Assembly: GCF_020171315.1 (NCBI RefSeq) | Contig: NZ_JAIUZP010000011.1 | Location: forward strand, 62,001-126,000 | Length of the DNA: 64,000 nucleotides | Source of the DNA: Pseudooceanicola nanhaiensis | GTDB lineage: Bacteria > Pseudomonadota > Alphaproteobacteria > Rhodobacterales > Rhodobacteraceae | Direction of reading: 5' to 3' | Shown here: positions 43,765 to 61,539 of the stretch, piece after piece | How the letters are laid out: the number at the start of each line of letters is the position of its first letter | How positions within the stretch are numbered: position 1 is the stretch's first letter | Translations under genes and position numbers: made by a program | The notes under the pieces: generated by a model | What the model was told of the DNA's origin: nothing | What the model saw: the letters and a program-made list of their open reading frames with translations, nothing else | The model's database searches: none

Positions 43765-45048
43765 ATGAAAGACGCAGGCTTCTTCACCACCCCGCTCGAA
43801 GAGCGCGATCCCGAGATCTTCGGCGCCATCCGCGACGAGCTGGGTCGCCAGCGGGACGAGATCGAGCTGATCGCCTCGGAAAACATCGTTTCCGCCGCCG
43901 TTCTGGAAGCGCAGGGCTCGGTCCTGACCAACAAATACGCCGAAGGCTACCCGGGCAAGCGCTACTACGGTGGTTGCCAGTACGTCGACGTGGCCGAAAC
44001 CCTGGCCATCGAGCGCGCGAAAGAGCTGTTCAACTGCAAGTTCGCAAACGTGCAGCCGAACTCCGGCAGCCAGATGAACCAGGCTGTCTTCCTCGCGCTG
44101 CTGCAGCCGGGCGACACCTTCATGGGCCTCGACCTGAACTCGGGTGGTCACCTGACCCACGGCTCGCCGGTCAACATGTCGGGCAAGTGGTTCAACGTCG
44201 TCTCCTACGGCGTGCGCCAGCAGGACGAGATGCTCGACATGGACGCGATCCGCGAGAGCGCGCGCGAGCACAAGCCCAAGCTGATCGTCGCCGGCGGCAC
44301 CGCCTACTCCCGGATCTGGGACTGGGCCGAGTTCCGCGCCATCGCCGATGAAGTGGGCGCCTACCTGATGGTCGACATGGCCCACATCGCGGGCCTCGTG
44401 GCCGGCGGCGTGCACCCCTCGCCGATCCCCCACGCCCATGTCGTGACCACCACCACCCACAAGTCGCTGCGCGGCCCCCGTGGCGGCATGATCCTGTGCA
44501 ACGACGCGGACATCGCCAAGAAGATCAACTCGGCCGTGTTCCCCGGCCTGCAGGGCGGCCCGCTGATGCATGTCATCGCCGCCAAGGCCGTGGCCTTCGG
44601 TGAAGCGCTCAAGCCCGAGTTCCAGGACTACGCGGTTCAGGTCGTCGCCAACGCGAAGGCCATGGCAGACCAGCTGATGAAGGGCGGGATCAACGTCGTC
44701 TCCGGCGGCACCGACAACCACCTCTGCCTCGCCGACCTGCGTCCCAAGGGCGTGACCGGCAAGGCCGCAGAGGCCGCCCTGGGCCGTGCGCACATCACCT
44801 GCAACAAGAACGGTGTGCCCTTCGACCCCGAGAAGCCCTTCGTGACCTCCGGCATCCGTCTGGGCGCCCCGGCCGGCACCACCCGCGGCTTCGGCGAGGA
44901 TGAGTTCCGCCAGATCGCGGACTGGATCGTCGAAGTGGTCGATGGCCTTGCGGCCAACGGTGAAGAGGGCAACGACGAGGTCGAGGCCAAGGTCCGCGGC
45001 GAAGTCGCAGCGCTCTGCGCCCGCTTCCCGCTCTACCCCGAAATGTAA
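43765..45048 (+). CDS. glyA: Serine hydroxymethyltransferase
   Basis: The 427-residue PLP enzyme interconverts serine plus tetrahydrofolate and glycine plus methylene-tetrahydrofolate. Visible motifs are LIASENIVS, the [10 protein letters not shown] stretch, [12 protein letters not shown] and the PLP lysine in [19 protein letters not shown]. The codon usage is cleaner than that of its neighbours (few rare codons), as expected for a highly expressed gene. No riboswitch-like leader is evident in the 140-base upstream gap. A GC hairpin follows. Confidence 0.97.
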
Positions 45049-45083: not shown

Positions 45084-45989
45084 ATGGCCTCTGACCTGGC
45101 ACGGGATCTTCCCATCGAAGCACGGGCCGAAGCATGGCTTTCGGCCCGCCTGCCCGGATCCCTCGGGGTCTGGGTTCTTTTCGTCGTGAAGCAGCTCTGG
45201 GCTTGTCTCTTCGGCCTGTCGATCCTCGCGGCGATCATCCTCTCCAAGGCGATCTGGCAGGCCGACTGGCCGATCTGGCGCTATGACGCGCTGGTGGTCT
45301 TTGCGGTGGCCATGCAGGGGCTGATGCTGGCGCTCAAGCTCGAGTCCAAGCACGAGGCGCTGGTCATCCTGATCTTCCACATCACCGGCACGGTGATGGA
45401 GCTTTTCAAGACAAGCGCAGGCTCATGGGCCTATCCGGAGGCGGGCTATCTCAAGATCGGAATGGTGCCGCTCTTCACCGGGTTCATGTATGCCTCTGTC
45501 GGCAGCTACATGGCGCGGGCGATCCGGCTCTTCGACATCCGCTTTGCCCCCTACCCGCCGTTCTGGACCACGGTCCTGCTGGCCACCGCGATCTACGTGA
45601 ACTTCTACAGCCACCACTTCCTGCCCGACGCGCGGGTCGTGCTCTTCGCGGGCACGGTGCTGCTCTTCTGGCGCACAAGGGTGCACATGCGGCTGGGGGG
45701 CTCGGGCGAGGTGACGATCCGCCTGCCGCTGGCGGCGCTGGCCACGGCCTTCGGCCTCTGGATCGCCGAGAACATCGGCACCTTCACCGGCACATGGCTC
45801 TACCACGGCCAGAGCCCGTGGGATCGGGTCCGGCTGGGCACGATGGGATCGTGGTACCTGCTGATCTACGTGGCCTTCGTGACGGTGACGCTGGTCTACC
45901 GCGACATGCTGCTGCGCGAACCGCTGGTCAAAGCCAGCCGCGCCAGCGGGCCACGACAAGACAGATCGCCAGGAACAGCAGCAGATTGA
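45084..45989 (+). CDS. DUF817-family integral membrane protein
   Basis: The 301-residue protein is predicted to have about eight membrane helices. The central HITGTVMELFKTSAGSW segment, with a YPEAGYLKIGMVPLFTGFMYASVGSY continuation split across two helices, is characteristic of DUF817 proteins, whose function is unknown. The C-terminal 20 residues are polar, and the gene end overlaps the convergent neighbour by 62 bases. Its ATG lies 35 bases after the glyA stop, so it may be co-transcribed in part. Confidence 0.85.
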   Translation: MASDLARDLPIEARAEAWLSARLPGSLGVWVLFVVKQLWACLFGLSILAAIILSKAIWQADWPIWRYDALVVFAVAMQGLMLALKLESKHEALVILIFHITGTVMELFKTSAGSWAYPEAGYLKIGMVPLFTGFMYASVGSYMARAIRLFDIRFAPYPPFWTTVLLATAIYVNFYSHHFLPDARVVLFAGTVLLFWRTRVHMRLGGSGEVTIRLPLAALATAFGLWIAENIGTFTGTWLYHGQSPWDRVRLGTMGSWYLLIYVAFVTVTLVYRDMLLREPLVKASRASGPRQDRSPGTAAD

Positions 45990-47472: not shown

Positions 47473-48948
47473 TCAGAGGTTGGTCACATGCACCGCAGGC
47501 CGGTCGCCCATGCACCACTTGCCCTCGATGGCGCGTTCGACCTGCGCCGCCAGTTGCAGCAGCAGCCCGTCGTTGCCCTGTGCCGCCTGCGCCTGAATGC
47601 CGAGCGGCAAGCCATTGGCGTGTTTCGCCAGCGGCATCGACAGGCCGGGCGTGCCGCAGAGGTTGTTCAGCGGCGTATAGGCGAAGAAACCCCAGAGGTT
47701 GCCGAACCAGTCCAGCGCCGAGGGGTTCTCGGTGATGGTCAGGTATTCGGTGGTGCCGATGGGGGGCGTCTCGCGGGCCGTGGTGGGCGTCAGGATGATG
47801 TCCCAGTCCTCGTAGAAGGCCCCGAAGGCGCGCGAGGTCTCGTTGAAGGCCAGCTCCATGTCGGCGCGTTCGGTGTAGCCTGCGTTGATGCCCTGCTCCC
47901 AGATGCGGATGTTCATCGGCTCGATCAGGTCGGCGGGCGGCGAGTCGAGGCCACGGGCCCGCAGCATCCGGTTCACCGTCTGGGCAAAGTTGGTGATGTA
48001 GCAGGTGGTCTGCGCGGCATAGGCCTTTTCGAAGTCGACCTTGGGCGTGACCCATTCCACGTGGTGGCCCAGCGTGGCGAGGAAGGCCGCGACGCGCTCC
48101 AACTCCGCCGCGATATGGGGCGTGGCGCTGTAGGGCCCCCATTCGTGCGAGACGGCGATGCGCAGCGGCTTGGGGTCGCTCTCCACCAGTGTCAGGAAGG
48201 GCGTGTCGGGGTGCCAGTAGGGCATGAACTCGCCCGGCGCGCCGCCCCGGCAGGTATCGACGAAGGCCGCGGTGTCGCGGACCGAGCGGCTGATGCAGCC
48301 CTGGGTCGAAACGACGGAGGCGAAATCCGAGGAATAGGGCGAGATCGAGAAGGTCCCGCGCGAGGATTTCAGCCCGATCGCGCCGCAGGTGCCCGCCGGG
48401 ATGCGGATCGAGCCGCCCCCGTCCGTGCCGTGCGCAATCGGCAGCACGCCCGCGCCCACCATGACGGCAGAACCGGCGGAGGAACCGCAGCTGGTGAAAT
48501 CCGTGTCCCACGGGTTGCGGGTGACATACATCGCCGGGTTCTCGGCCGAAGAGCAGCATCCGAATTCCGGCGTCGTGGTGCGCCCGATGATGTTGAGCCC
48601 CGCGGCCTTCATCTTGGTGACGAGGAAACTGTCGCTGGCCGGCCGGTTGCCCTGCATGAAGAAGGAGCCCTGTTCCTGAAGCCGTCCGCCCAGCGTGGGG
48701 CCAAGATCCTTCAGCAGGAAGGGCAGCCCGGCAAAGACGCCCTCCGGGTCCGCGCCGTTGACGGTGGCATCGGCCACCGCGTCGTCGAAGACCTCGACCA
48801 CGCCGCAGATCGCTTCGTTGACGCCGCTGATTCCCGCCGCGACCTGCGCCGCCAGCTCCTCCGCCGAGACCTCGCCGGCCTTCACCTTCTGGGCTAGACC
48901 GATGCCATCGTGGCTGAACCACTCTTCCCAGCTCATCGTCAGCGTCAT
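47473..48948 (-). CDS. Amidase-signature family hydrolase
   Basis: The 491-residue enzyme carries the amidase-signature core: catalytic lysine in FLLKDLGP, the serine-rich region CGSSAGSA and the nucleophile serine in HGTDGGGSIRIPAG. The first serine motif reads CGSSAGSA where GGSSGGSA is usual. Such enzymes hydrolyse amides of small acids or amines in the cytoplasm. AAGGAT stands six bases before the ATG. It is divergent from an M20 gene, and a copy of the 19-bp operator lies 89 bases upstream of its start, so it belongs to the inferred GntR regulon. The specific amide is unknown. Confidence 0.9.
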   Translation of the reverse strand: MTLTMSWEEWFSHDGIGLAQKVKAGEVSAEELAAQVAAGISGVNEAICGVVEVFDDAVADATVNGADPEGVFAGLPFLLKDLGPTLGGRLQEQGSFFMQGNRPASDSFLVTKMKAAGLNIIGRTTTPEFGCCSSAENPAMYVTRNPWDTDFTSCGSSAGSAVMVGAGVLPIAHGTDGGGSIRIPAGTCGAIGLKSSRGTFSISPYSSDFASVVSTQGCISRSVRDTAAFVDTCRGGAPGEFMPYWHPDTPFLTLVESDPKPLRIAVSHEWGPYSATPHIAAELERVAAFLATLGHHVEWVTPKVDFEKAYAAQTTCYITNFAQTVNRMLRARGLDSPPADLIEPMNIRIWEQGINAGYTERADMELAFNETSRAFGAFYEDWDIILTPTTARETPPIGTTEYLTITENPSALDWFGNLWGFFAYTPLNNLCGTPGLSMPLAKHANGLPLGIQAQAAQGNDGLLLQLAAQVERAIEGKWCMGDRPAVHVTNL

Positions 48949-49036
48949 GAATTATCCTTTATGATACAGAGGCTTATCTCGTGAAATCAGGCGCTTGCCG
49001 CGGCCTGCGAGGGCGGTGTCCCGTGAACGCTAGGCC

Positions 49037-49055
49037 GATTGTCGACAATGGTCAA
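49037..49055 (+). promoter_or_regulatory. Operator copy A (GATTGTCGACAATGGTCAA)
   Basis: This matches GATTGWCGACAATNGTCRA and contains the perfect palindrome ATTGTCGACAAT (49038-49049). It lies 89 bases before the amidase start, in the 358-base gap between divergent amidase and M20 genes. Binding by the GntR/FCD protein at the end of the island is inferred. Confidence 0.7.
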
Positions 49056-49166
49056 TTCGCTCTTCACCGGGATTTTCGCAGCCCCGCAGGCTCTGCCTAA
49101 TCGCAGGGCAATCGCTTCGCCAGCCGGGACTCGACGATGTGGCGCGGCGCGAATGCGCAGATTGAG

Positions 49167-49185
49167 GATTGACGACAATTGTCAA
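49167..49185 (+). promoter_or_regulatory. Operator copy B (GATTGACGACAATTGTCAA)
   Basis: This is the second match to the 19-bp consensus, containing the perfect palindrome GACAATTGTC (49174-49183) and outer TTGAC/GTCAA arms. It lies 122 bases before the M20 start and 111 bases from copy A, a distance that would allow looping. Confidence 0.7.
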
Positions 49186-49306
49186 AGTGCCGTCTTTTTG
49201 ACGGAGATGCGGGCCAGCCCGACGCTTGTCCGATGGCCGCATCGCCCGAATGCCCGGTCCCGGCGATCCTGCCCCGGACCGCACCATCCGCACACGGAGA
49301 CGCCCG

Positions 49307-50443
49307 ATGACCCTTCCCGATCTTCCCTTCGATGCGCAGCAGATCGTCGCCGGGCTGAAGCCCTGGATCGAATGCGAGAGCCCCACCTACGATCCCGCGG
49401 CGCTGGCCCGGATGATGGACCTCGTGGCCTTCGAATGCGCCGCCATCGGCGCCTCGGTCGAGATCATCCCGGGCCGCATGGGCTGTGGCCCCTCGGTGCG
49501 CGCGAAGATGCCCCACAAGGATCTGGGCAAGCCCGGCATCCTCGTCTCCGGCCACATGGACACGGTGCACCCCATCGGCACGCTGGCCAAGAACCCGTTC
49601 CGGGTGGAGGGCGACAAGGCCTATGGCCCCGGCATTCAGGACATGAAATCCGGCAATTACATCGCGCTGGAGGCGATGCGCCAGATCGCCCGCGCCGGGC
49701 TGGAAACGCCCCTGCCCGTCACTTTCCTCTTCACCCCCGACGAAGAGATCGGCTCGCCCGCCACGCGGGAACTGATCGAGGGCGAGGCGCTGAAGAACAA
49801 GTATTTCCTCTGCCCCGAGCCCGCGCATCTGAACAACGCCGTCACCACCGGCCGCTATGCGATCGCCCGGTTCGAGATCACCTGCTCCGGCAAGCCCAGC
49901 CATGCGGGCGCCAACGTGAAGGGCGGCATCTCGGCGGTGCGCGAACTGGCGCACCGGATCATCGAGATCGAGGCCATGACCACCGAGGATTGCACCTTCT
50001 CCTGCAATGACGTGACCTCGGGCCAATGGGTGAACTGCGTGCCCAGCTTTGCCCGGGCGCAGGTGCTGTCCATGGCGAAGAAGCAGGAAGACCTCGATGC
50101 GGGCGAGGCCGCGATGCTGGCGCTTGCGGGCACCCGCAACGGGGTGGAGTTCACCGTGAAGACCACCGTCGTGCGCCCCGTGTGGGAGAACGAGCAGCCC
50201 GAGACAATGGCGCTCTACGAGATCGCCAAGGGGCTGGCCGCCGAGATCGGGATGGAGCTGCCCTATGTCTCCTCCGGCGGCGGGTCGGATGCGAACTTCT
50301 CGGGCGCGCTGCGCATTCCCTCGCTCTGCTCCCTCGGCGTCTCCGGCGCGGGCCTGCACACGCTGGAGGAGCATATCGACATCGCCAGCATCGTGCCCCG
50401 CACCCGCCTGCTGGCCGGGCTCTTCATGACGCTCGAAGGCTGA
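49307..50443 (+). CDS. M20-family metallopeptidase (carboxypeptidase G2-like)
   Basis: The 378-residue zinc hydrolase has the M20 ligands in order: GHMDTVHP (histidine), GIQDMKSG (aspartate), TPDEEIGSP (glutamates) and the C-terminal GLHTLEEH. A dimerisation lid domain lies at about residues 180-290. The Ser/Gly-rich SSGGGSDANF segment resembles glutamate carboxypeptidases (CPG2 type), which remove a C-terminal glutamate or deacylate amino acids. GGAG precedes the ATG; a longer reading into the operator region is rejected. It opens the rightward arm of the island and is followed by the kinase gene after 81 bases. Confidence 0.9.
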   Translation: MTLPDLPFDAQQIVAGLKPWIECESPTYDPAALARMMDLVAFECAAIGASVEIIPGRMGCGPSVRAKMPHKDLGKPGILVSGHMDTVHPIGTLAKNPFRVEGDKAYGPGIQDMKSGNYIALEAMRQIARAGLETPLPVTFLFTPDEEIGSPATRELIEGEALKNKYFLCPEPAHLNNAVTTGRYAIARFEITCSGKPSHAGANVKGGISAVRELAHRIIEIEAMTTEDCTFSCNDVTSGQWVNCVPSFARAQVLSMAKKQEDLDAGEAAMLALAGTRNGVEFTVKTTVVRPVWENEQPETMALYEIAKGLAAEIGMELPYVSSGGGSDANFSGALRIPSLCSLGVSGAGLHTLEEHIDIASIVPRTRLLAGLFMTLEG

Positions 50444-50524
50444 GCCCCCCTGAGCCCACCCCTGAGCCCACGCGCAGACCGGCGGCCCGGACCGGGCCGC
50501 CCGACAAGACCTCCCGGAGGCCGA

Positions 50525-51586
50525 ATGACACCGACCCAGATGCAGGGTGCCGAGATCGACATTGGCGCACTGTCCACCCCCTTCACGCCGATGACCGCCG
50601 AGGAGGCCGCCGAGGTCGCCCGCGACCTCTATGGGCTGGAGGGCGATCTGAAACGCTTTGCGACCGAGAAGGACGATACCTTCCGGCTGCGCACGCCTTC
50701 GGGCGCCTATGTCCTGAAAATCGCCAACCCGGGCGAGAGCGCCGAGGAACTGGACCTCCAGATCAAGGTGCTGCGCCATATCGAGCGGACCGACCCCGGC
50801 CTGCCGGTGCCGCGCATCTTCGCGGACCGCGACGGGAACGATCAGCCGATCATCCTCGACCGGACGGGTGCTGCGCGACGGGTGCGGCTGATGAGCTTCC
50901 TCGACGGGACGCTCCTCGACACGACGGAGCCGCTGGCGGCGGAACTGCCGGTGATCGGGCGCATGTGCGCGCGGCTGCGGCTGGCGATGGCCGGGTTTTC
51001 GCATCCCGGTGCGCAACGGGTCGTGGCATGGGACGTGCGGCAGCTGCCCGGCCTCGGCACGCTGCTGGCGGATGTGAAGGACCCGGGCCAGAAGGCCATG
51101 CTGGAGGCCGGATACGCCCGCTACATGGACCTCTTTCCGCGGATCGACGCCCTGCCCCGGCAGGTGGTGCACAACGATTTCAGCCGCTCCAACCTGCTGG
51201 TCGACCGCTCCGGCCCCGCGAACCTCGTGGGGATCATCGACTTCGGCGACACGGTGGAGACGGCGATTGCCATCGACATCTCCACCGCGCTGCTGAACCA
51301 ACTGCCCCGCGACGCCGCCGAGAACCCAGTGGAGGATCTGCTGGCCGCGCCCAAGGCGGTGCTGCAGGGGTATCTGGAGGTCGCCCCCCTGACCGATGAG
51401 GAACGCGCCCTGCTGCCCCACCTCGTCATGGGCCGGGTCATTGCCCGCGCGCTGATCACCCTGTGGCGCGCGCGCGAATTCCCCGACAACGAAACCTACA
51501 TCCTACGCAACACGGAACAGGGCTGGGCCCAGCTCAACTGGTTCCTCGCCCGCGATCCCGACGACATCTCTGCGCTGCTGGCCTGA
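50525..51586 (+). CDS. APH-family small-molecule kinase (hydroxylysine kinase/AGPHD1-like)
   Basis: The 353-residue protein has the aminoglycoside-phosphotransferase/choline-kinase fold. The catalytic loop reads VVHNDFSRSNLLVDR and the metal-binding motif IIDFGDTVET; the ATP lysine is in GAYVLKIANPGE. It is not adjacent to resistance genes. The closest functional analogy is the human hydroxylysine kinase AGPHD1, because the next gene is a PLP enzyme of the AGXT2L type, its partner in hydroxylysine breakdown. It would phosphorylate the hydroxyl of an amino alcohol. GGAGG precedes the ATG. Ethanolamine or 1-amino-2-propanol are alternative substrates. Confidence 0.82.
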   Translation: MTPTQMQGAEIDIGALSTPFTPMTAEEAAEVARDLYGLEGDLKRFATEKDDTFRLRTPSGAYVLKIANPGESAEELDLQIKVLRHIERTDPGLPVPRIFADRDGNDQPIILDRTGAARRVRLMSFLDGTLLDTTEPLAAELPVIGRMCARLRLAMAGFSHPGAQRVVAWDVRQLPGLGTLLADVKDPGQKAMLEAGYARYMDLFPRIDALPRQVVHNDFSRSNLLVDRSGPANLVGIIDFGDTVETAIAIDISTALLNQLPRDAAENPVEDLLAAPKAVLQGYLEVAPLTDEERALLPHLVMGRVIARALITLWRAREFPDNETYILRNTEQGWAQLNWFLARDPDDISALLA

Positions 51587-51611
51587 GCAGCCCATCCGAA
51601 AGGCCCCCCCG

Positions 51612-52964
51612 ATGACCTCTTCGATCTCCACCCGCGGCAAGATGGTGAACGCCTTCGACCCGAACAGCCTCTACCATCTCGACCCGCTGCGCCGGGCTGC
51701 CATTGAACGGCGCACCCGCCTGCTGGGCCCCGCCTACCGCCTGTTCTATCAGGACCCGGTGGAGGTGCGCGAAGGCCGCGGCACAAGGCTCTTCGACAGC
51801 GAGGGGCGCGAATACCTCGACGCCTACAACAACGTGGTCTCCGTCGGGCATTGCCACCCCAAGGTGGTGGAGGCCGTGCACAAGCAGATGTCCACCCTCT
51901 GCACCCACACGCGCTATATCCAGGAAGGCATCCTCGATTACGCCGAGGCAATGCTGCCGACCTTCGGCGGGCGGATCGCGGCGGGCGGGCACATGATGTT
52001 CACCTGCACCGGCTCCGAGGCCAATGACCTCGCCATGCGGATCGCCAAGCATTACACCGGCCATCAGGGGATCATCATCACCCGCGAGGCCTACCACGGG
52101 AATTCCGACCTGACGGCGGGCTTCTCTGCCTCGCTCGGCACCTCCTCGCCGCTGGGGGCGTGGGTGCGCACCGTCTCCGCGCCCGACAGCTACCGCGAGG
52201 ACCCGGCGACGCTGGGCCAGCGGATGGCCGAAGAGGTCGCGGAACAGGCATGGCACCTCAAGCGCAACGGCAACGGTCTGGCCGCCTTCATCGCCGACAG
52301 CCTGTTCTCCTCCGACGGGATCTATGCCACGCCCGAGGTGCTCAAACCCGTGGCCGATGCCGTCCATGCCGCAGGCGGGCTCTTCGTCGCGGACGAGGTG
52401 CAATCGGGCTTTGGCCGGTCGGGCGATGCGATGTGGGGCTTCCAGCGCCACGGGATCGACCCGGACATCGTCTCGATGGGCAAGCCCATGGGCAACGGCT
52501 ACCCGGTGGCCGGCATCGCGCTGGTGCCCGAGATCGTCGAGAAATTCGGCAAGGACACGCGCTATTTCAACACCTTCGGTGGCAATGGCGTGGCCATGGC
52601 CGCCGCGCAGGCGGTCTTTGACGTGATCCGCGAGGAGAACCTTCAGGAAAACGCCCGCCTGCGCGGGCAGGAGATCCAGGACGGCTTCAACCGGCTGGCC
52701 GAACGCTTCGAGGGCATCGGCGACGTGCGCGGCGCCGGGCTCTACATCGGGGTCGAGCTGGTCACGGACCGGGACAACAAGATCCCCGATGCCGATGCCG
52801 CCACGCGGATCGTGAACGGCCTGCGCGAAAAACGCGTGCTGATCTCGGCCACCGGGCCCGATGCCAACGTGTTGAAGATCCGCCCGCCCGTGGTCTTCAC
52901 GGAAGCCGATGTAGCGTGGCTGCTCGCCGCCTCGGAAGAGGTGCTGTCGCACGTCTACGGCTGA
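51612..52964 (+). CDS. Class III PLP enzyme, probable O-phospho-amine phospho-lyase (AGXT2L-like)
   Basis: The 450-residue protein has the class III aminotransferase fold with TCTGSEANDLAMRIAK (about residues 135-150), the PLP aspartate in FVADEVQSGFGRSG and the Schiff-base lysine in SMGKPMGNGYPVAG. The AGXT2L/PHYKPL group with this MGKPMGNG motif releases phosphate and ammonia from phosphoethanolamine or 5-phosphohydroxylysine rather than transferring an amino group. Its position directly after an APH-type kinase (25 bases) supports that reading. It would give acetaldehyde or 2-aminoadipate semialdehyde, respectively. A plain aminotransferase remains possible. Confidence 0.82.
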   Translation: MTSSISTRGKMVNAFDPNSLYHLDPLRRAAIERRTRLLGPAYRLFYQDPVEVREGRGTRLFDSEGREYLDAYNNVVSVGHCHPKVVEAVHKQMSTLCTHTRYIQEGILDYAEAMLPTFGGRIAAGGHMMFTCTGSEANDLAMRIAKHYTGHQGIIITREAYHGNSDLTAGFSASLGTSSPLGAWVRTVSAPDSYREDPATLGQRMAEEVAEQAWHLKRNGNGLAAFIADSLFSSDGIYATPEVLKPVADAVHAAGGLFVADEVQSGFGRSGDAMWGFQRHGIDPDIVSMGKPMGNGYPVAGIALVPEIVEKFGKDTRYFNTFGGNGVAMAAAQAVFDVIREENLQENARLRGQEIQDGFNRLAERFEGIGDVRGAGLYIGVELVTDRDNKIPDADAATRIVNGLREKRVLISATGPDANVLKIRPPVVFTEADVAWLLAASEEVLSHVYG

Positions 52965-53068
52965 GACGCCCCTGTCGGTGCCCGTCAAAGTGGCGGGCCC
53001 CCAAGGGCCGTCGCGTAAAACGGCAGTGGCCCGGCGCGGGCCATTGACGCCGGGGCAGACCCGGCTTG

Positions 53069-53079
53069 GATTGTCGACA
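53069..53079 (+). promoter_or_regulatory. Partial operator match before the second M20 gene
   Basis: GATTGTCGACA matches the first 11 bases of the island operator, then diverges (CATCGGA). It is 75 bases before the ATG of the downstream M20 gene and may be a weaker site. Confidence 0.35.
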
Positions 53080-53154
53080 CATCGGAACACGCCGGAACAG
53101 ACCGGCCCGGCCCTCTCCACCCCTCACCTGCAACATCAGACTGGAAGACCCGCG

Positions 53155-54438
53155 ATGCCCCTCAGCGCAGACCTCAAAGAGAAGATCCTGAAATCGGTGG
53201 ACGACGGCTTCGATGAGCAGACCGCCTACCTCAAGACGCTGGTCTCCTTCGCCTCGCAGCGTGGTGAGGAAGTGCCGATGCAGGAGTTCATCTACACGGA
53301 TTTCGCCGAACGCGGCCTGACGATGGACCGCTTCGCCATGGACGAGGCGGCGCTGACCGCTCACGAGGGCGGCGCCCCCTTCTCCGCCACCCATTCCAAG
53401 GCCCCGATCGTGGTGGGGACCCATCATCCCAAGGAGGCCAAGGGCCGGTCGCTGATCCTGCAGCATCACCTCGACGTGGTGCCGATCGGCCCGCGCGAGA
53501 TGTGGGAACATGACCCCTACGCCGCCGAGATCGTCGACGGCTGGATGTACGGCCGCGGCGCGGGCGACATGAAGGCCGGCGCCTCGGCCAACGTCTATGC
53601 GCTGGAGGCGCTCAAGCGGATCGGCCTGCAACCGGCGGCCACCGTCCACCTGCAATCGGTGGTCGAGGAGGAATCGACCGGCAACGGCGCGATGCAATGC
53701 TTCCTGCGCGGCTATACCGCCGAGGCGGCGATGATCCCCGAGCCCTCGAACATGACGCTGGCACGCGGCGCGCTCGGGGTTCTGTGGTTCGAGGTGCTGG
53801 TGCGCGGTTTCCCGACCCACGTCAGCGTCATGGGCACCGGCAACAACGCCATCGACAGCGCCTATCGCCTGATGGGCGCCCTGCGCGAGGTCGAGGAGAA
53901 GTGGAACGCCGAGAAGGATCAGCACCCCTACTGCGCCCATATGGAGCACCCGATCAACCTGAACATCGGCAAGATCGAGGGCGGCGACTGGGGCTCCTCC
54001 GTGCCGGCGTGGTGCAAGTTCCAGGTGCGTGTGTCGATCTACCCGGGCCAGAAGGCACAGGACAAGCTGAAGGAGATCGTGGATCACGCCCTCGCCTTCG
54101 CCAAGCAGGACCCGTTCCTCGCGCAGAACCTGCCGACCTTCACCCAGAACGGCTTCAACTCCGAGGGGTTCATCCTCGAACCCGGCTCCGAGGCAGAGGA
54201 AACGCTGGGCCGCGCCCACGAGGCGACCTTCGGCACGCCGCTCGAAAGCTTCACCACCCCGGCCTATATCGATGCCCGGGTCTATGCGCTCTACAACAAG
54301 ATCCCCGTGCTGAATTACGGGCCCGAGGGCAGGCTGTCCCACGGGTTCGATGAATGCGTGAACCTCGAATCCCTGCGCCGGACGACCCAGTCCATGGCGC
54401 TCTTCATCGCCGAGTGGTGCGGCACCGAAGACATCTGA
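53155..54438 (+). CDS. M20-family deacylase/peptidase (ArgE/DapE-like)
   Basis: The 427-residue protein is a second, distinct M20 enzyme. Metal ligands appear in LQHHLDVVPIGP, GAGDMKAGASAN, VVEEESTGNG and IPEPSN, and the last histidine in GRLSHGFDECV. A lid domain lies at about residues 205-320. This ArgE/DapE-type branch removes acyl or carbamoyl groups from amino acids or cleaves dipeptides. Its first metal motif is QHHLD where GHxD is usual. It is followed by a strong terminator, so the kinase, lyase and M20 genes probably end here. Confidence 0.9.
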   Translation: MPLSADLKEKILKSVDDGFDEQTAYLKTLVSFASQRGEEVPMQEFIYTDFAERGLTMDRFAMDEAALTAHEGGAPFSATHSKAPIVVGTHHPKEAKGRSLILQHHLDVVPIGPREMWEHDPYAAEIVDGWMYGRGAGDMKAGASANVYALEALKRIGLQPAATVHLQSVVEEESTGNGAMQCFLRGYTAEAAMIPEPSNMTLARGALGVLWFEVLVRGFPTHVSVMGTGNNAIDSAYRLMGALREVEEKWNAEKDQHPYCAHMEHPINLNIGKIEGGDWGSSVPAWCKFQVRVSIYPGQKAQDKLKEIVDHALAFAKQDPFLAQNLPTFTQNGFNSEGFILEPGSEAEETLGRAHEATFGTPLESFTTPAYIDARVYALYNKIPVLNYGPEGRLSHGFDECVNLESLRRTTQSMALFIAEWCGTEDI

Positions 54439-54465
54439 CCTGCACTCAGGTCATGGCGCTGCGCC

Positions 54466-54500
54466 CCCGGCCACCCCGTGTGGCCGGGCCTTTGCGTTTG
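54466..54500 (+). terminator. Terminator after the second M20 gene
   Basis: CCCGGCCAC-CCCGT-GTGGCCGGG is a perfect 9-bp stem followed by CCTTTGCGTTT. It separates the catabolic genes from the importer operon. Confidence 0.75.
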
Positions 54501-54661
54501 GGCCTGCGGTGAAGGCGCGCAACTTACGCCGCACCGCAGAATGCACGGAAATTGGGCAAATCGGCAACATATTAACGCTTTGATTTTGCTTATATTTATT
54601 CATTTCTGCATTTGCACGACAGTCATATGACAGGAATCTCCGACTGTCCTCGGGTTCATCG

Positions 54662-54691
54662 TTGCCTCGCAAAAAACTTCGGTCCTATCCT
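54662..54691 (+). promoter_or_regulatory. Candidate promoter of the peptide-type importer operon
   Basis: TTGCCT and TATCCT are separated by 18 bases, inside the most A/T-rich stretch of the window (about 54541-54720). Transcription from it would begin near 54698, so the operator at 54702-54720 would lie over the start. This is a motif guess. Confidence 0.35.
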
Positions 54692-54701
54692 CTGGAATGA
54701 T

Positions 54702-54720
54702 GATTGACGACAATCGTCGA
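54702..54720 (+). promoter_or_regulatory. Operator copy C (GATTGACGACAATCGTCGA)
   Basis: This is the third match to GATTGWCGACAATNGTCRA, with the inner dyad GACGA-CAA-TCGTC (54706-54718). It ends 33 bases before the binding-protein ATG, a position suited to repression. Confidence 0.7.
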
Positions 54721-54753
54721 ATAATAATCTCAAAGTCTGTCAGGGAGACTGAA

Positions 54754-56343
54754 ATGCTCACCAAAAGTTTCTGCAGCAACCTGCTGAAGCCGACGATGCT
54801 GGCGCTTGCGCTTGGCACCGTGTCCGGCGCCGCCGTTCAGGCACAGACCATCACCGCCGTGATGCACGCGCCGCTGCGCGCCGTGGACCCGGTCATCAGC
54901 ACCGCCTACATCCTGCGTAACTTCGGTTACATGATCTATGACACGCCGCTGGCCCTCGACAGCGCCGGCACCCCGCAGCCGCAGATGGCCAGCTGGGAAG
55001 TCTCCGAGGATGGCAAGACCTACACCTTCACCCTGCGCGACGGCCTGACCTTCCACGATGGCGCCCCCGTCACCGCGGCAGACGTCGTCGCCTCGGTCAC
55101 CCGCTGGAGCAAGGTCGACAAGACCGGCCAGGTGATGGCCTCGCTGATGACCGAAATGGTCGCTGTCGACGACAAGACCTGGACCATGACCTTCGGCGAG
55201 CCCACCGGCATCGCGCTGATCGCCCTGTCCAAGCCCTCGGGCCTCGCCCCCTTCATCATGCCCGCCTCGGTCGCAGCCACCCCCGTGAGCGAGCCGATCA
55301 CCTCGACCATCGGCTCCGGCCCCTTCAAGTTCGTCGAAGCGGACTACCGTCCCGGCGTCTCGGCCACCTTCGCCAAGTTCGAGGAATACGTGCCCCGTGA
55401 AGAGCCCTCCGACGGCATGGCCGGCGGCAAGGTCGTGAAGGTCGACGAAGTGGTCTGGACCACGATGCCCGACCCGATGACCTCGCTCAACGCGCTGATG
55501 TCCGGCGAGATCGACTTCCTCGAACAGACCCCGCATGACCTGCTGCCGGTGATCGAGGGCAACCCCGACATCAGCACCCGTCAGGTGAAGAAGCAGGGTT
55601 CGCAGAACCTCGTGCGGATGAACCACACCCTGCCGCCCTTCGACAATCCGAAGTACCGCGAAGCCGTGCTGCTCGCGCTTGGCCAGCAGCCCATGCTGGA
55701 CGCGCAGGTCGGTGCCGGGTCGGAATACTCGCAGGCCTGTGCAGCGGTCTTCGGCTGCGGCTCGATCTACAACTACGACTACCGCGCGGATGACATCATG
55801 TATGCGCATCCCGACAAGGCCAAGGCGATCCTCGACGAAGTGGGCTATGACGGCACCCCGATCCTGCTGATGCACGCCACCGACCTCGCCACGCTGAACC
55901 CGCAGGGTCCGGTTATCGCGGCACAACTGCGTGACGCTGGCTTCACGGTCGACATGGTCTCGATGGACTGGGCCTCGGTCGTTGCCCGCCGCGCCTCCAA
56001 GGCAACGCTGGCCGATGGCGGCTGGAACATGTTCTCCACCACCAACGTTCTGCCCGACGTGGCCAACCCGATCGGCTTCATCGGCGTCGCGGCTGGCGGC
56101 GATTCGGCATGGTTCGGCTGGCCCAACGTCCCCGAGATCGAAGAACTCCGCATGGCGGTCGCACAGACCGCCGACGTGGATCAGCAGATCGAATACGCCA
56201 AGAAGATCGACGAACTGGTCATCGACAACGGCGTCATGGTCCCGATGGGCGAACTCTTCAACGTGAACGCCTATTCGTCCAAGCTGACCGGTCTCGTCGA
56301 AGCCGAGGCGCCGGTGTTCTGGAACGTCGAAAAGGCCGAGTGA
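54754..56343 (+). CDS. ABC importer substrate-binding protein, family 5 (peptide/opine/nickel type)
   Basis: The 529-residue protein has a Sec signal (about residues 1-31, ending AVQAQ) with no lipobox cysteine, so it is periplasmic. It has the family 5 layout with LTFHDGAPVTAADVVASVTRW at about residues 100-120 and a C-terminal lobe ending VMVPMGELFNVNAY. Family members bind oligopeptides, opines, glutathione or nickel complexes. CAGGGAG precedes the ATG. It is the first gene of the importer operon and lies directly under operator copy C. The ligand is presumably the parent compound of the island. Confidence 0.92.
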   Translation: MLTKSFCSNLLKPTMLALALGTVSGAAVQAQTITAVMHAPLRAVDPVISTAYILRNFGYMIYDTPLALDSAGTPQPQMASWEVSEDGKTYTFTLRDGLTFHDGAPVTAADVVASVTRWSKVDKTGQVMASLMTEMVAVDDKTWTMTFGEPTGIALIALSKPSGLAPFIMPASVAATPVSEPITSTIGSGPFKFVEADYRPGVSATFAKFEEYVPREEPSDGMAGGKVVKVDEVVWTTMPDPMTSLNALMSGEIDFLEQTPHDLLPVIEGNPDISTRQVKKQGSQNLVRMNHTLPPFDNPKYREAVLLALGQQPMLDAQVGAGSEYSQACAAVFGCGSIYNYDYRADDIMYAHPDKAKAILDEVGYDGTPILLMHATDLATLNPQGPVIAAQLRDAGFTVDMVSMDWASVVARRASKATLADGGWNMFSTTNVLPDVANPIGFIGVAAGGDSAWFGWPNVPEIEELRMAVAQTADVDQQIEYAKKIDELVIDNGVMVPMGELFNVNAYSSKLTGLVEAEAPVFWNVEKAE

Positions 56344-56349
56344 TCAAGT

Positions 56350-57291
56350 ATGCTGAGCTTCGTTGTCAAACGGGTCCTCTCGGCCGTGCCGGTGCTGTTC
56401 ATGGTGGCGGTCATCGTCTTCATGGTGCTGCGCCTGTCGCCCGGTGACCCGGCGGTCATGATCGCCGGCCCCAACGCAACCTCCGAACAGCTTGCCGATC
56501 TGCGCGAGAGCATGGGGCTGAACCGGCCGCTGCTCGAACAGCTGCTGATCTGGCTGGGCGACATCGGCCGGGGTGACTTCGGCACCTCGCTCGTGTCCGG
56601 CAAGCCGGTGACAGAGCTTGTCATGGACCGGCTGTGGCCGACTCTGGCGCTCAGCACCTCCACGATCATCCTGGCGGTGGCCGTCGCGCTGCCGCTGGGG
56701 GTCATCGCGGCCTGGCAGCAGGGCAAGTGGCTGGACCGGCTGGTCATGGCCGGGTCGGTTGTCGGCTTCTCGGTGCCGGTGTTCATCATCGGCTACGTCA
56801 TGATCCTGATCTTCGCGCGCAAGCTGGGTTGGTTCCCCGTGCAGGGCTACAAGCCCCTGTCCGCGGGATTCGGAGAATTCGCCTCGCGGCTGGTTCTTCC
56901 GTCCATCGCGCTGAGCTTCCCCTATATCGCCCTGATCGCCCGCATCGTGCGGACCAACGTGATCGAGGTGATGGGCGAGGATTACATCCGCACCGCCCGG
57001 GCCAAGGGCCAGACGGAACGCGGGGTGATGACCGAACACGCGCTGCGCAATGCGGCCGTGCCGATCGTCACGATCATCGGTGTTTCCATCGCCATGCTGA
57101 TTTCCGGCGTGGTGGTGACCGAGTCGGTGTTCAACATCCCCGGCCTCGGCCGTCTCGTCCTCGAGGCGGTGCTGGCCCGGGATTACACCGTCATCCAGGC
57201 CGTGATCCTGCTCTTCTCGACGATCTACGTCTTCATCAACCTCTCGGTCGACCTGCTCTACGGGCTGTTCGATCCGCGGATCCGCTACTGA
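56350..57291 (+). CDS. ABC importer permease (DppB-like)
   Basis: The 313-residue protein has six predicted membrane helices and the DppB-type N-terminus (LSFVVKRVLSAVPVLFMVAV). The EAA loop is visible as YIRTARAKGQTERGVMTEHALRNA. It pairs with the next permease to form the channel of a peptide/opine-type importer. It begins six bases after the binding-protein stop. Confidence 0.93.
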   Translation: MLSFVVKRVLSAVPVLFMVAVIVFMVLRLSPGDPAVMIAGPNATSEQLADLRESMGLNRPLLEQLLIWLGDIGRGDFGTSLVSGKPVTELVMDRLWPTLALSTSTIILAVAVALPLGVIAAWQQGKWLDRLVMAGSVVGFSVPVFIIGYVMILIFARKLGWFPVQGYKPLSAGFGEFASRLVLPSIALSFPYIALIARIVRTNVIEVMGEDYIRTARAKGQTERGVMTEHALRNAAVPIVTIIGVSIAMLISGVVVTESVFNIPGLGRLVLEAVLARDYTVIQAVILLFSTIYVFINLSVDLLYGLFDPRIRY

Positions 57292-57384
57292 TCTGGCGGC
57301 TTGCCGGCCCCCTGCCCCGGGGGCCGGTCCAACGGGGACACGAACACGCGGCCCATCAAGAGCCGCAAGCAACGGACGTACACC

Positions 57385-58302
57385 ATGACCACTGACAGCG
57401 GAAACACGATGAAAGCCGAGGAGACACTCGCCCTTCCGGACATGGAAGAGGCGCAGAATGCCTCCGGCCTCGGACAGCTGATCCGCGGCATTCTCTCCAC
57501 CTGGCCGGCCCGCATCTCGGCCGTGGTCCTGCTGCTGATCATCCTCATGGCGGTCTTCGCCCCCTACCTCGGCACGGTGGACCCGGTGCGGCTTGACCCG
57601 TCGCAGCGTCTTCAGGGCTCCACCGCCGCCCATTGGCTGGGCACCGACAGCTTCGGCCGCGATCTCTATTCCCGCGTCGTCTATGGCGCGCGCATCTCCC
57701 TCGCCGTGGGGGCCGGCACCGTGATCGTCGCCCTGCTGGCGGGCGTCTTCTTCGGCGTGCTGACGGGCTACTTCCGCTGGGCCGACATCGTCGTCATGCG
57801 CTTCATGGACGGCCTGATGGCAATCCCCGGCATCCTGCTGGCCATCGCCCTCGTCGCCATTTCCGGTGCCACGCTGACCACCGTGCTGATCGCCATCTCG
57901 ATCCCCGAGGTGCCCCGCGTCGCCCGCATGGTCCGCTCGGTTATCATGGGCGTGCGCAACGAACCCTACGTCGAGGCGGCCTCGGTCCTCGGCACCTCCA
58001 CGATCAAGATGATCACCCGCCACATGCTGCCCAACACGATCGCGCCGCTGATCGTGCAAGGCACCTATATCTTCGCCTCGGCGATCATGACGGAATCGAT
58101 CCTGTCCTTCCTCGGCGCGGGCGTTCCGCCCGAAACGCCCAGCTGGGGCAACATGATGGCCGATGGCCGTCTCTACTTCCTCGTGAAGCCCGAACTCATC
58201 CTCTACCCCGGCGTCATGGTCTCGCTCACCGTTCTGAGCGTGAACATGCTGGGCGATGTTCTGCGCGACCGTCTCGACCCGCGCATGGCCAAACGTATCT
58301 GA
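57385..58302 (+). CDS. ABC importer permease (DppC-like)
   Basis: The product is 305 residues from this ATG; an ATG at 57409 with GGAAAC upstream is an alternative. It has an N-terminal cytoplasmic part, six membrane helices, a FGRDLYSRVVYGARISL segment typical of DppC, and the EAA loop EPYVEAASVLGTSTIKMITRH. The 93-base gap to the DppB-like gene holds no gene. Confidence 0.92.
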   Translation: MTTDSGNTMKAEETLALPDMEEAQNASGLGQLIRGILSTWPARISAVVLLLIILMAVFAPYLGTVDPVRLDPSQRLQGSTAAHWLGTDSFGRDLYSRVVYGARISLAVGAGTVIVALLAGVFFGVLTGYFRWADIVVMRFMDGLMAIPGILLAIALVAISGATLTTVLIAISIPEVPRVARMVRSVIMGVRNEPYVEAASVLGTSTIKMITRHMLPNTIAPLIVQGTYIFASAIMTESILSFLGAGVPPETPSWGNMMADGRLYFLVKPELILYPGVMVSLTVLSVNMLGDVLRDRLDPRMAKRI

Positions 58303-58322
58303 CCGAGAAGAGGATCATCATT

Positions 58323-59966
58323 ATGACGACCACCCCCGACAGCCAAGTCGTCCTCTCGGTCGAGGACGTGACGGTAGACACCCGCCCCAAGGGCAAGAAA
58401 CCCATCGTGCGCAACATCTCCTTCGACGTGAAGGAAGGCGAAACGGTCTGCATCGTGGGCGAATCCGGCTCCGGCAAATCGGTGACCTCGATGGCGGTGA
58501 TGGGCCTGCTGCCCAAGGACGCCCTTCAGGTCACCGGCGGCCGGATCATGCTGGATGGCGAAGACATCCTGAAGGTCACCCCCGCCCGGATGCGCGAGCT
58601 GCGCGCGGCCTCCGTCGCCATGGTCTTCCAGGAACCGATGACGGCGCTGAACCCGGTGAAGACCGTGGGCGACCAGATCGACGAGGTGCTGCGCCTGCAC
58701 ACCAAGGACAGCCCCGCCGAGCGCAAGAAGAAGGTCCTCTCCATGCTCGACCGGGTGCACCTGCCCGATATCGAGCGGGTCTACAAATCCTTCCCGCACG
58801 AGCTGTCCGGCGGGCAGCGGCAGCGGATCGTGATCGCCATGGCGCTGATCCTGCGCCCGCGCCTGCTGCTGGCGGATGAACCGACCACCGCGCTGGACGT
58901 GACGACGCAGAAGCAGATCCTCTACCTCATCAAGGAATTGCAGGAGCAGGAGAAGACCGCCGTCGTCTTCGTGACCCACGACTTCGGCGTCGTGTCCGAG
59001 ATCGCCGACCGCATCGTGGTGATGAACCGCGGCGATCTGGTGGAGACCGGCACGCGGGACGAGATCCTGACCGCGCCCAAGAAGGACTACACCCGGATGC
59101 TGGTCTCCTCGGTGCCCAGCCTGATCCCCCGCCGGGAGCCGATCGCGGCCCAGCCGAAGGTGCTGGACGTGATCTCGCTGCAAAAGCGCTACGGCAAGAA
59201 GGGCCTGCTCTCCGACAACACCGTGCTGGCGGCGCAGGACATCAACTTCACCGTCCACAAGGGCGAGATCACCGGCATCATCGGCGAAAGCGGCTCAGGC
59301 AAGTCGACGGTGGCGCGCTGCGTCATGCGGCTGACCGATCCGACTGAGGGCTCGGTCGTCGTCAACGGGCGCGACATCGTGCCGATGAACAACCTGCGCG
59401 ACGTGCGCAAGCAGGTGCAGTACATCTTCCAGGACCCCTACCGTTCGCTCAACCCGCGCCGCACCATCGGCCAGTCCCTGATGGAGGGGCTGATCAACTA
59501 CGGCATGGACGAGGCCGAGGCGAAGAAGCGCGTCGGCGAGACGCTGGAGCTGGTGAACATGCCCGCCTCGGTCATGAACCGCTATCCGCACCAGTTCTCG
59601 GGCGGGCAGCGCCAGCGGGTCGCCATCGCCCGCGCCGTGGTGATGGAGCCTGACCTGCTGATCGCGGACGAGGCCGTCTCGGCACTGGACGTGACGGTGC
59701 AGGCGCAGGTGCTGAAGCTGCTGGAAGACATCCGCGACAACACCGGGGTGTCGATCCTCTTCATCACCCACGACCTGCGCGTGGCGGCCCAGATCTGCAA
59801 CACGGTGGTCGTGATGCAGAAGGGCAAGATCGTGGAACACGGCGCGGCACGCGATATCCTCGCCAACCCGCAGCACGCCTACACCCGGGCCCTGATCGAC
59901 GCGGCCCCGGCCCCGGACTGGGATTTCCAGAACTTCCGGCCCGCCGCAGCCGCCGTCGCGGTCTGA
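58323..59966 (+). CDS. ABC importer ATP-binding protein with two fused ATPase domains (DppD-DppF type)
   Basis: The 547-residue protein contains two complete ATPase domains in one chain. Domain 1 (about residues 10-265) has [16 protein letters not shown] and [12 protein letters not shown]. Domain 2 (about 280-530) has [17 protein letters not shown] and [12 protein letters not shown], with an alanine in place of the usual proline after the Walker B glutamate. In most peptide importers these are two genes (dppD, dppF). Both domains keep the residues needed for hydrolysis. It begins 20 bases after the DppC-like gene and energises the same importer. Confidence 0.94.
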
Positions 59967-60003
59967 CCCCGGACCGCAGAGCAGAACGAAGAAAGGACAG
60001 GCA

Positions 60004-61539
60004 ATGCGCATCCTGCTTGCCGGTTTCAACCACGAGACCAACACCTTTGCCGACAGCCGCGCCGATGACGCGGCCTTTGCCCACGGCGGCGGCTTCCCGG
60101 GCTTCTGCACCGGCGCGGAGGTCCGCGCGGCGCTGAACCCCGAGGTGAACCTCGCCGGTGCGGGCTTCCTGCTGGCGGCCGAGGCGGCGGGCGACGAAGT
60201 GGAAACCCTGCTCTGGACCGCCGCGGTGCCCTCGGGCTACGTGGTGAAGGAGACCTATGACCGGATCGCGGGCGAGATCATCGCCCGGATCGCCGCCGCC
60301 CTGCCCGCCGATGCGGTCTACCTCGACCTGCATGGCGCCATGGTGGCCGAACATGCCGAGGACGGCGAGGGCGAACTTCTGGAGCGCATCCGCGCCGTCA
60401 CCGGCCCCGACCTGCCGATCATCGTCAGCCTCGACCTGCATGCCAATGTCTCGCAGCGGATGATGGACCTGTCGGATGCAATGGTGGCCTTCCGCACCTA
60501 TCCGCACGTGGACATGGCCGAAACCGGCCGCAAGGCCCATGCGCTGCTCACCCGCCGCATGGCCCATGGCAAGCCTTTCGCCAAGGCCATGGCCCGCATC
60601 CCCTATATGAAGCCGATCTGCTGGCAATCGACCGAAGACGCGCCCGCCCGCGACCTCTATGCCCTCGTCGGCACGCTGGAGGCCGAGACCGGCGCGCCCT
60701 CCGTCTCCTACTGCATGGGCTTCCCGGCGGCGGACATCCCCATGTGCGGCCCCGTGGTCTGGGCCTATGGCGAAACGCCCGAACAGGCCGCTGCCGCCTG
60801 CGATCCGCTGAACGCCGCCGTCGTCGCGGCCGAGATGGATTTCGAAGGGCCGCTCTACACCCCCGACGCGGCGGTAGAGAAAGCGCTGGAGCTGAATACC
60901 GCAGGCGTGAAACCTGTGGTCATCGCGGATGCGCAGGACAACCCCGGTGCAGGCGGCTCTTCCGACACGATGGGGCTGATCAAGGCGCTGGTGGCCCATG
61001 ACGTGCAGGGCGCAAGCGCGGGCCTCGTCTATGACCCCGAGGCCGCCAAGGCCGCCCATGCGGCCGGTGTCGGCGGGCAGGTCACCCTCGCGCTCGGCGG
61101 GCGCTCGCCTGCCAAGGGCGACAGCCCCTTCGAGGCGACCTTCACGGTCGAGGCGCTCTCCGACGGCGTGTTCCAGACCAAGGGCCCCTTCTACGGCGGG
61201 CGGACCATGGGGCTTGGCCTCTCGGCCTGCCTGCGCATCGGCGGGGTACGCATCGCCGTTGCCTCGGCCAAGGCACAGCTCGCCGATCAGGAGATGCTGC
61301 GCTACCTCGGGATCGAACCCACGACCGAGAACATCATCGTCGCCAAGAGCGCGATCCACTTCCGCGCCGATTTCCGCCCCATCGCCGGTGAGATCATCAC
61401 CGCCGTCGCCCCGGGCGAGATGATGATGCGCTCGACCGACTGGACCTGGCACAACCTGCCCGACGACCTGCGCATGATGCCCGGCGGCCCCACCTTCGCC
61501 GAAACGAAGACGCCAGCCAAAACGGCCGCCGACGCCTGA
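60004..61539 (+). CDS. M81-family metallopeptidase (MlrC-like)
   Basis: The 511-residue protein has an N-terminal NHETNTF motif (about residues 9-15), YLDLHGAMVAEHAEDGEG, LDLHANVS and AFRTYPHVDMAETG, which supply the zinc ligands of the M81 family. A C-terminal MlrC domain follows with GGRTMGLGLSACLRIGGVR. MlrC, the named member, cleaves linearised microcystin; many relatives sit in catabolic clusters with amidases and peptide importers, as here. No mlrA or mlrB is present. It follows the ATPase gene by 37 bases, so it belongs to the importer operon. AAAGGA precedes the ATG. Confidence 0.92.
   Translation: MRILLAGFNHETNTFADSRADDAAFAHGGGFPGFCTGAEVRAALNPEVNLAGAGFLLAAEAAGDEVETLLWTAAVPSGYVVKETYDRIAGEIIARIAAALPADAVYLDLHGAMVAEHAEDGEGELLERIRAVTGPDLPIIVSLDLHANVSQRMMDLSDAMVAFRTYPHVDMAETGRKAHALLTRRMAHGKPFAKAMARIPYMKPICWQSTEDAPARDLYALVGTLEAETGAPSVSYCMGFPAADIPMCGPVVWAYGETPEQAAAACDPLNAAVVAAEMDFEGPLYTPDAAVEKALELNTAGVKPVVIADAQDNPGAGGSSDTMGLIKALVAHDVQGASAGLVYDPEAAKAAHAAGVGGQVTLALGGRSPAKGDSPFEATFTVEALSDGVFQTKGPFYGGRTMGLGLSACLRIGGVRIAVASAKAQLADQEMLRYLGIEPTTENIIVAKSAIHFRADFRPIAGEIITAVAPGEMMMRSTDWTWHNLPDDLRMMPGGPTFAETKTPAKTAADA

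Follow-up and report, generated by a model that had tools for sequence, protein, structure and literature searches.

Within the 64,000-nucleotide stretch of DNA analysed here (the window), genes for a small-molecule kinase and for a class III PLP-dependent enzyme lie side by side among genes for hydrolases and an importer. This raises the question of what the two enzymes do together, and whether they and their neighbours form one pathway. An earlier note on this DNA had described a kinase gene followed 25 bases later by the gene of a class III PLP enzyme, surrounded by amidases, M20 and M81 hydrolases and an importer. Both open reading frames are present on the same strand with precisely this spacing, and the neighbourhood likewise agrees with the description, with two amidases, two M20 enzymes, one M81 enzyme and an SBP_bac_5-type importer made up of a solute-binding protein (SBP), two permeases and a double ATPase. 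The host genome comprises 4.82 Mb in 30 contigs and is 99.9% complete. The features of the cassette are as follows.

47473-48948, minus strand: amidase-signature enzyme, AMID2 (Pfam Amidase 6.1e-78)
49038-49049, strandless: predicted operator in the gap that separates the divergently oriented amidase and M20 genes, a perfect palindrome ATTGTCGACAAT
49168-49179, strandless: second predicted operator, one mismatch to ATTGTCGACAAT
49307-50443, plus strand: M20 metallo-hydrolase, PRK07473, carboxypeptidase-G2-like (NF005678 1.8e-174, 580 bits, cut-off 386)
50525-51586, plus strand: APH-fold small-molecule kinase, ATG start, 353 aa (Pfam APH 1.4e-30)
51612-52964, plus strand: class III PLP phospho-lyase, ATG start, 450 aa (Pfam Aminotran_3 2.2e-69)
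53070-53081, strandless: weak operator-like site in front of the second M20 gene, with two mismatches
53155-54438, plus strand: M20 ArgE/DapE-type deacylase, PRK06837 (NF005306 2.9e-184)
54703-54714, strandless: predicted operator in front of the likely SBP start, with one mismatch
54754-56343, plus strand: SBP_bac_5 solute-binding protein (Pfam 2.2e-66)
56350-57291, plus strand: ABC permease 1
57301-58302, plus strand: ABC permease 2
58299-59966, plus strand: double ABC ATPase, oligopeptide type
60004-61539, plus strand: M81 metallopeptidase, MlrC-like (Pfam 1.3e-94)
61734-63152, plus strand: amidase, PRK07487 subfamily (NF005687 7.1e-200)
63247-63933, plus strand: GntR/FCD regulator, predicted to bind ATTGTCGACAAT (Pfam FCD 1.8e-23, GntR 7.7e-13)

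The last of these is a neighbour that the earlier note had left unnamed. Some start sites are a matter of choice: the longest reading frame of the first M20 gene opens at a TTG at 49226 and that of the second at 52978, while for the SBP gene 54754 is the likely start and the longest frame opens at 54697; the corresponding frame of Maritimibacter alkaliphilus has 529 aa. The closest solved relative of AMID2 is the 6-aminohexanoate cyclic-dimer hydrolase (PDB 3a2p, 8.5e-64), and the first M20 enzyme matches PDB 1cg2 with 3.6e-39.

The PLP enzyme had been proposed to belong to the phospho-lyases and not to the true transaminases. Among solved structures it comes closest to the phospholyase A1RDF1 (5g4i, 9.4e-101) and to ETNPPL (6tor, 2.4e-96), and the next one, a GABA aminotransferase, follows at 4.4e-50. 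In a tree of 109 rows, calculated with a quick method and with its long branches flagged, A1RDF1 and ETNPPL both group with the lyases and are separated from an outgroup of seven class III rows (five unclassified class III genes of the host genome and two aminotransferases of the type found in its second cassette). Hereby, the SH-aLRT value is 83 for the lyase side including ETNPPL and 97 for the part that comprises A1RDF1 and the clade of the window enzyme; the latter belongs to a kinase-linked clade separate from both A1RDF1 and ETNPPL. Twelve signature residues (R34, N73, N74, V75, Q264, G290, P292, M293, N295, N320, N325 and K422) are each present in 96-100 of 100 lyases and occur in both A1RDF1 and ETNPPL. 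No more than one outgroup row carries any given one of them; at R34, five of the seven rows have gaps. Six of the twelve (N73, N74, V75, G290, P292 and N295) are invariant in all 100 lyases and absent from the outgroup except for V75 in one row. The AGXT2L-type MGKPMGNG site reported earlier is contained in the motif SMGKPMGNGYP, in which G290 to G296 are invariant throughout the 49-row alignment A4 and K291 is presumably the PLP lysine. By descent, as far as sequence can tell, the PLP enzyme is thus a phospho-lyase.

In the kinase, the APH-fold residues H216, D218, N223, D239, F240 and G241 are invariant in all 50 sequences of alignment A3, and the structure model has a pLDDT of 93.4. The protein matches the N-terminal part of PRK06148 with 5.7e-57. 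Homoserine kinase identity was considered and rejected: the kinase scores far below the cut-offs of the ThrB2 models (TIGR00938, 76.1 of 255.9 bits; NF003558, 69.1 of 271 bits), and two homoserine kinase rows (307 and 313 bits) are separated from it in the kinase tree by a branch of length 5.76, the support of the root split being only 47. A search of NCBIfam at 1e-3 returned no named resistance-kinase family for the kinase; amicoumacin and APH(2'') kinases are among its relatives by fold and profile, as remote kin only. The profile search is led by 6ef6 (5.7e-17), the aminopropanol kinase of the RMM/Aut system.

To see how regularly the two genes occur together, we compared 79 distinct loci representing the best 80 lyase matches from species genomes, a sample that favours close relatives because only the best matches were included. 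The kinase gene lies directly upstream of the lyase gene on the same strand in 67 of these 79 loci, so the pairing is not a product of chance. The spacing within the 67 ranges from -72 to +370 nt, depending on the choice of start, and stays within 166 nt in 66 of them. Among the 12 exceptions, L053 carries a kinase 8.5 kb away; in L060, L062, L063 and L064 an APH-type gene lies on the opposite strand about 2 kb upstream of the lyase (identified by Pfam and PDB in L060, by clustering in the other three); and L027 and L040 possess a glycerate-2-kinase type gene. No kinase was seen in L023, L068, L085, L088 and L097, some of which lie on short contigs. The distances of kinases and lyases are strongly correlated (Mantel r 0.886, with none of 2000 permutations as high, for 90 pairs thinned to 70), a value raised in part by shared genome ancestry. 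In L120, a genome of the same family, both enzymes form a single reading frame of 994 aa, which matches nearly all of PRK06148 with 938 bits, below the cut-off of 1128. Judged by this linkage and co-variation, the pair is a unit in its working, and its core chemistry is well supported by descent.

The host genome harbours three such pairs, the other two being 66%/50% and 52%/37% identical to the window pair (lyase/kinase). All three are situated at most 7 kb from an SBP5 gene, a bare count that carries no chance expectation in a genome with 30 SBP5 genes. The second pair ends a run of SBP, permease, permease, ATPase, class III aminotransferase, amidase, kinase and lyase genes, in which the permeases were assigned by position in the host genome and by annotation in Thioclava (L017); its importer, aminotransferase and amidase recur in Rhizobium wenxiniae (L084) and Methylobacterium (L094) beside a lyase of another clade.

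On a contrary reading, the PLP enzyme would be a genuine transaminase, and the kinase, either unrelated to it or serving detoxification, would be its neighbour by chance. Database names lend it some colour: lyase relatives at 1e-60 occur in 387 of 72,556 plasmid records, and among the 40 matches listed per search most annotated records call the lyase relative an aspartate aminotransferase family protein and the kinase relative a phosphotransferase. The kinase moreover shares its fold with APH resistance kinases. Against this stand the lyase tree and the signature residues, which side with the phospho-lyases, the kinase scores far under the homoserine-kinase cut-offs, and the adjacency, fusion and co-variation described above, so that we regard the transaminase reading as very improbable and retain the assignment as a kinase and phospho-lyase pair.

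Pairs of this kind are widespread in bacteria, and the earlier remark that no named bacterial system has such a gene set proved too strong in view of two precedents. The proteins catalogued as PRK06148/NF004799 unite the same kinase and lyase families in one chain, whereas in the window two separate genes match only the two ends of the PRK06148 model (193 and 449 of 1128 bits for kinase and lyase, respectively). The RMM/Aut cluster of Mycobacterium and Rhodococcus, as described in an excerpt of PMC6620236, combines an APH-family phosphotransferase with an aminotransferase-like enzyme, a GntR regulator and a permease; the same excerpt gives the order of steps proposed in 2019, with transamination first and the kinase last, and RMM is listed among compartments as an amino-alcohol type in the available part of PMC11346464. 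Compared to this system for aminoacetone and 1-amino-2-propanol, the window has a peptide importer and amide hydrolases instead of shell and SDR: by Pfam, neither a shell protein nor a 1-amino-2-propanol dehydrogenase/SDR occurs among the cassette genes. The RMM/Aut class III enzyme acts as a phospho-lyase after the kinase. Its kinase 6ef6 is a fold and profile relative of the window kinase but, at 18% identity, not its ortholog. The ethanolamine-phosphate phospho-lyases A1RDF1 and ETNPPL, in turn, belong to the same class III family and have the active-site signature in common with the window lyase, which differs in its separate, kinase-linked clade. The same two-step chemistry is expected for the animal hydroxylysine route of HYKK (AGPHD1) and PHYKPL, reportedly described by Veiga-da-Cunha in 2012, a work cited in PMC8154272 and PMC12138971; the comparison concerns the chemistry, and the bacterial genes stand in a context of import and amide hydrolysis. 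PbfA, the (R)-1-hydroxy-2-aminoethylphosphonate ammonia-lyase, acts on an unphosphorylated hydroxyl according to the accessible part of PMC8154272; going by that part, it and the window enzyme are both class III lyases for a terminal amine, although the window lyase reaches only 183.9 of 525 bits with the PbfA model NF049939. The pair itself is hence already known and catalogued, and the new part is the cassette at 47473-63933 with its switch. A literature search for this gene set, with the operator sequence outside its scope, found no description.

Two further routes were considered and set aside for the cassette. Hydroxyectoine degradation was rejected, none of the R. etli genes concerned being present in the cassette; in R. 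etli, ornithine cyclodeaminase and threonine/serine dehydratase genes lie between two HAD-kinase-lyase sets. What had suggested the azetidine-2-carboxylate route was the rhizobial HAD, to which haloacid dehalogenase and azetidine-2-carboxylate hydrolase come nearest. This route was likewise dismissed, as the cassette contains no HAD and the product, going by an excerpt of PMC8016842, has its amine and hydroxyl at non-adjacent positions.

The known relatives nevertheless suggest that the pair might degrade ethanolamine, 1-amino-2-propanol or hydroxylysine, the hydrolases merely supplying N-acyl or peptide forms. The closest solved lyases, A1RDF1 and the ethanolamine-phosphate enzyme ETNPPL, speak for this, as does the leading position of 6ef6 in the kinase search. 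The four Mycobacterium loci named above combine a lyase relative (55-56% identical) and the APH-type kinase with a permease and an AMP-binding enzyme (found by scan in L062 and by clustering in L060, L063 and L064); three of the four have an SDR-type gene, and the L060 kinase is related to 6ef6 with 1.9e-91. The low identity of the window kinase to 6ef6 points the other way, and so does the branch of 5.2 that separates it from the L060 and L064 kinases in the tree. By Pfam, the cassette contains neither an SDR nor an aldehyde dehydrogenase gene; one gene cluster of the aldehyde dehydrogenase type is represented in 19 of the 79 best-match loci. A glycerate-2-kinase type gene in the kinase's place (L018, L040) or beside the lyase (L027) is also not suggestive of ethanolamine or aminopropanol. 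We consider an amino alcohol of this series a serious possibility, somewhat short of an even chance.

Whether import and hydrolysis belong to the pair can be judged from other genera. The pair of M. alkaliphilus is nearly the same (lyase 98%, kinase 95% identical). AMID2 has counterparts in M. alkaliphilus, Pseudooceanicola, Paenirhodobacter and a Sphingomonadales MAG that are 80-82% identical to the Thioclava copy, all of them near a kinase-lyase pair. In Thioclava (L016, L185, L187) and Pseudooceanicola (L024, L122, L186; L122 and L186 are from G013, taken to be the same assembly as that of L024), the run SBP-permease-permease-ATPase-M81-amidase-GGT-amidase-GntR is divergent from an amidase, a C69-like peptidase (a weak match, 1.9e-6), the kinase and the lyase. 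The window cassette, which is of the Maritimibacter type, keeps this order without the gamma-glutamyltransferase (GGT) and one amidase; M20 hydrolases replace the C69-like gene, and the M20-kinase-lyase genes are on the strand of the importer. GGT relatives (27-32%) are also found in L029, L037 and L093, and the GGT of the relatives together with the carboxypeptidase-G2-like M20 enzyme suggests a glutamyl conjugate as the imported compound.

The kinase-lyase and the importer/M81/amidase operons could also be separate pathways that adjoin by chance or through clustering of peptide-utilisation genes. Two other contigs of the host genome (C8 and C17) do have M81 and SBP5 genes no more than about 10 kb apart, and the pair occurs with many other importers. 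Yet Maritimibacter, Thioclava and Pseudooceanicola all keep the two operons side by side and have one palindrome in common at their promoters, and in Bradyrhizobium (L028) an unbroken run leads from SBP, two permeases and ATPase to kinase and lyase, with GntR and amidase genes divergent. Two separate pathways thus appear improbable, and the cassette genes are probably under one switch.

This switch would consist of the GntR/FCD regulator and the palindrome ATTGTCGACAAT, which is common to the promoter regions of the three genera. In the window, six sites with up to two mismatches were found compared to 0.67 expected, including two-mismatch sites at 308 and 62904; the copy at 49038 is the only exact one in the 4.8-Mb genome, and the cassette holds three of the nine genomic sites that show one mismatch at most. 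In the 79 best-match loci (1.41 Mb), 12 exact copies are spread over 6 loci, and allowing up to one mismatch gives 25 sites, distributed over 10 loci; among controls, the reversed pattern occurs 0 times and 119 palindromes of equal composition have at most 2 exact copies. L022 and L024 represent the species or sequence of motif discovery and are therefore not independent; leaving them out reduces the exact copies to 9, in 4 loci. Each of the five loci with a GntR protein at least 40% identical to that of the window (L028, L029, L030, L037 and L040; 62% in L030) contains a site with no more than one mismatch, and the thirteen loci with a 30-35% relative contain none. L022, L024, L025, L026 and L027 show sites and no such GntR within the fetched flanks; for L022 and L024, its position in the window and in L186, where the relative is 66% identical, shows that the gene is located beyond these flanks. 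The palindrome alone is not diagnostic, since 88 of 386 genomes of the class carry an exact copy; only two of 30 fetched class-wide sites (L156, 44-50%; L166, 28%) are near a relative of the GntR group, and most of the class-wide hits look like chance.

Taken together, the region from 47473 to 63933 is fairly likely to be one catabolic regulon for conjugate import, hydrolysis, phosphorylation and elimination to an aldehyde. Of the complete pathway envisaged in the earlier note, the association of the pair with an importer and amide hydrolases stands, given its recurrence in three genera with a common promoter palindrome; the order of the steps is put forward here as a proposal. The regulator would bind ATTGTCGACAAT-like sites in three intergenic promoter regions, and the SBP5-type importer would bring in an amide or peptide conjugate, possibly a gamma-glutamyl one. 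From this, amidases, M20 and M81 hydrolases may release a compound with a terminal amine beside a hydroxyl, presumably an amino alcohol or a 3-amino-2-hydroxy acid. The kinase would phosphorylate that hydroxyl with ATP, and the PLP lyase would eliminate both phosphate and ammonia. The aldehyde so formed would then be oxidised by enzymes whose genes lie outside the cassette. With operator, importer and hydrolases defined, the physiological substrate of such a regulon becomes findable.

A direct clue to this substrate comes from loci in which two unrelated kinases are exchanged beside the same lyase. In L018 and in L040, a Lichenibacterium locus (lyases 64% and 66% identical to the window lyase, respectively), a DUF4147/MOFRL glycerate-2-kinase type gene replaces the APH kinase directly upstream of the lyase; L040 has a one-mismatch ATTGTCGACAAT site and L018 no exact one. 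In L027 (lyase 67%), such a gene and the lyase gene point away from each other and flank an exact palindrome; only about 190 bases of contig follow the lyase, and an APH kinase may lie beyond its end. Relatives of the glycerate-2-kinase type gene (54-65%) in Paraburkholderia caribensis and on a Salmonella plasmid adjoin an enolase gene preceded by an exact ATTGTCGACAAT, and the GntR proteins there are 38-40% identical to that of the window. Besides the early end of the L027 contig, a further point speaks against taking the exchange at face value: L027 and the P. caribensis locus, in which the stretch read contains no lyase, have in common an ABC importer, a RidA-type gene and a FAD oxidoreductase. 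These loci point rather to a small 2-hydroxy acid than to hydroxylysine or phosphoethanolamine, and the kinase exchange suggests, without showing it, a glycerate-like substrate such as isoserine. Phosphorylated isoserine would, by the expected chemistry, be turned into malonate semialdehyde by the lyase. A broader and rather speculative idea, which we hold to be unlikely though worth stating, is that a GntR/FCD-ATTGTCGACAAT regulon family governs an undescribed route for 3-amino-2-hydroxy acids such as isoserine, with release from amides or gamma-glutamyl conjugates, phosphorylation of the 2-hydroxyl by either kinase type and formation of malonate semialdehyde. If so, an APH-fold kinase and a glycerate-2-kinase homologue would serve one and the same step, and a substrate shaped like glycerate would explain why the operator is shared with the glycerate-2-kinase/enolase clusters.

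Beyond the window, loci of rhizobia, Pseudomonas and Arthrobacter (L043-L052, L057, L058, L061, L020 and L145) add a type II haloacid dehalogenase (HAD) to the pair of APH-fold kinase and class III PLP phospho-lyase. The R. etli locus L145 carries the HAD-kinase-lyase set twice, and between the two copies lie genes for ornithine cyclodeaminase and for a threonine/serine dehydratase. At the four Mycobacterium lyase loci (L060, L062, L063 and L064) an APH-type kinase is present together with a permease and a gene of the AMP-binding acyl-CoA synthetase type, and three of these loci additionally contain an SDR-type gene. The L060 kinase is related to 6ef6, the solved aminopropanol kinase of the RMM/Aut microcompartment (1.9e-91).

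In genome G013 (contig C4, locus L123), the importer, class III aminotransferase and amidase of the second cassette type occur along with a kinase, while a lyase was not found within the 18 kb fetched. The lyase stretch of Roseovarius aestuarii (L079:2414-3745) contains an internal stop codon in the reading used.

The exact palindrome ATTGTCGACAAT, the predicted operator of the window's GntR/FCD regulator, is also present at L143:7572-7583 and L144:6103-6114, where it precedes enolase genes on Paraburkholderia caribensis and Salmonella plasmids, and at both loci a glycerate-2-kinase type gene lies nearby. An enolase gene is also convergent to the second kinase-lyase run of the window's genome (L013:7217-8605 and 9017-10441); it may be linked to the run or may be a housekeeping gene.

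Within the window itself, two further genes adjoin each other:

43765-45048, serine hydroxymethyltransferase
45084-45989, DUF817 protein, function unassigned
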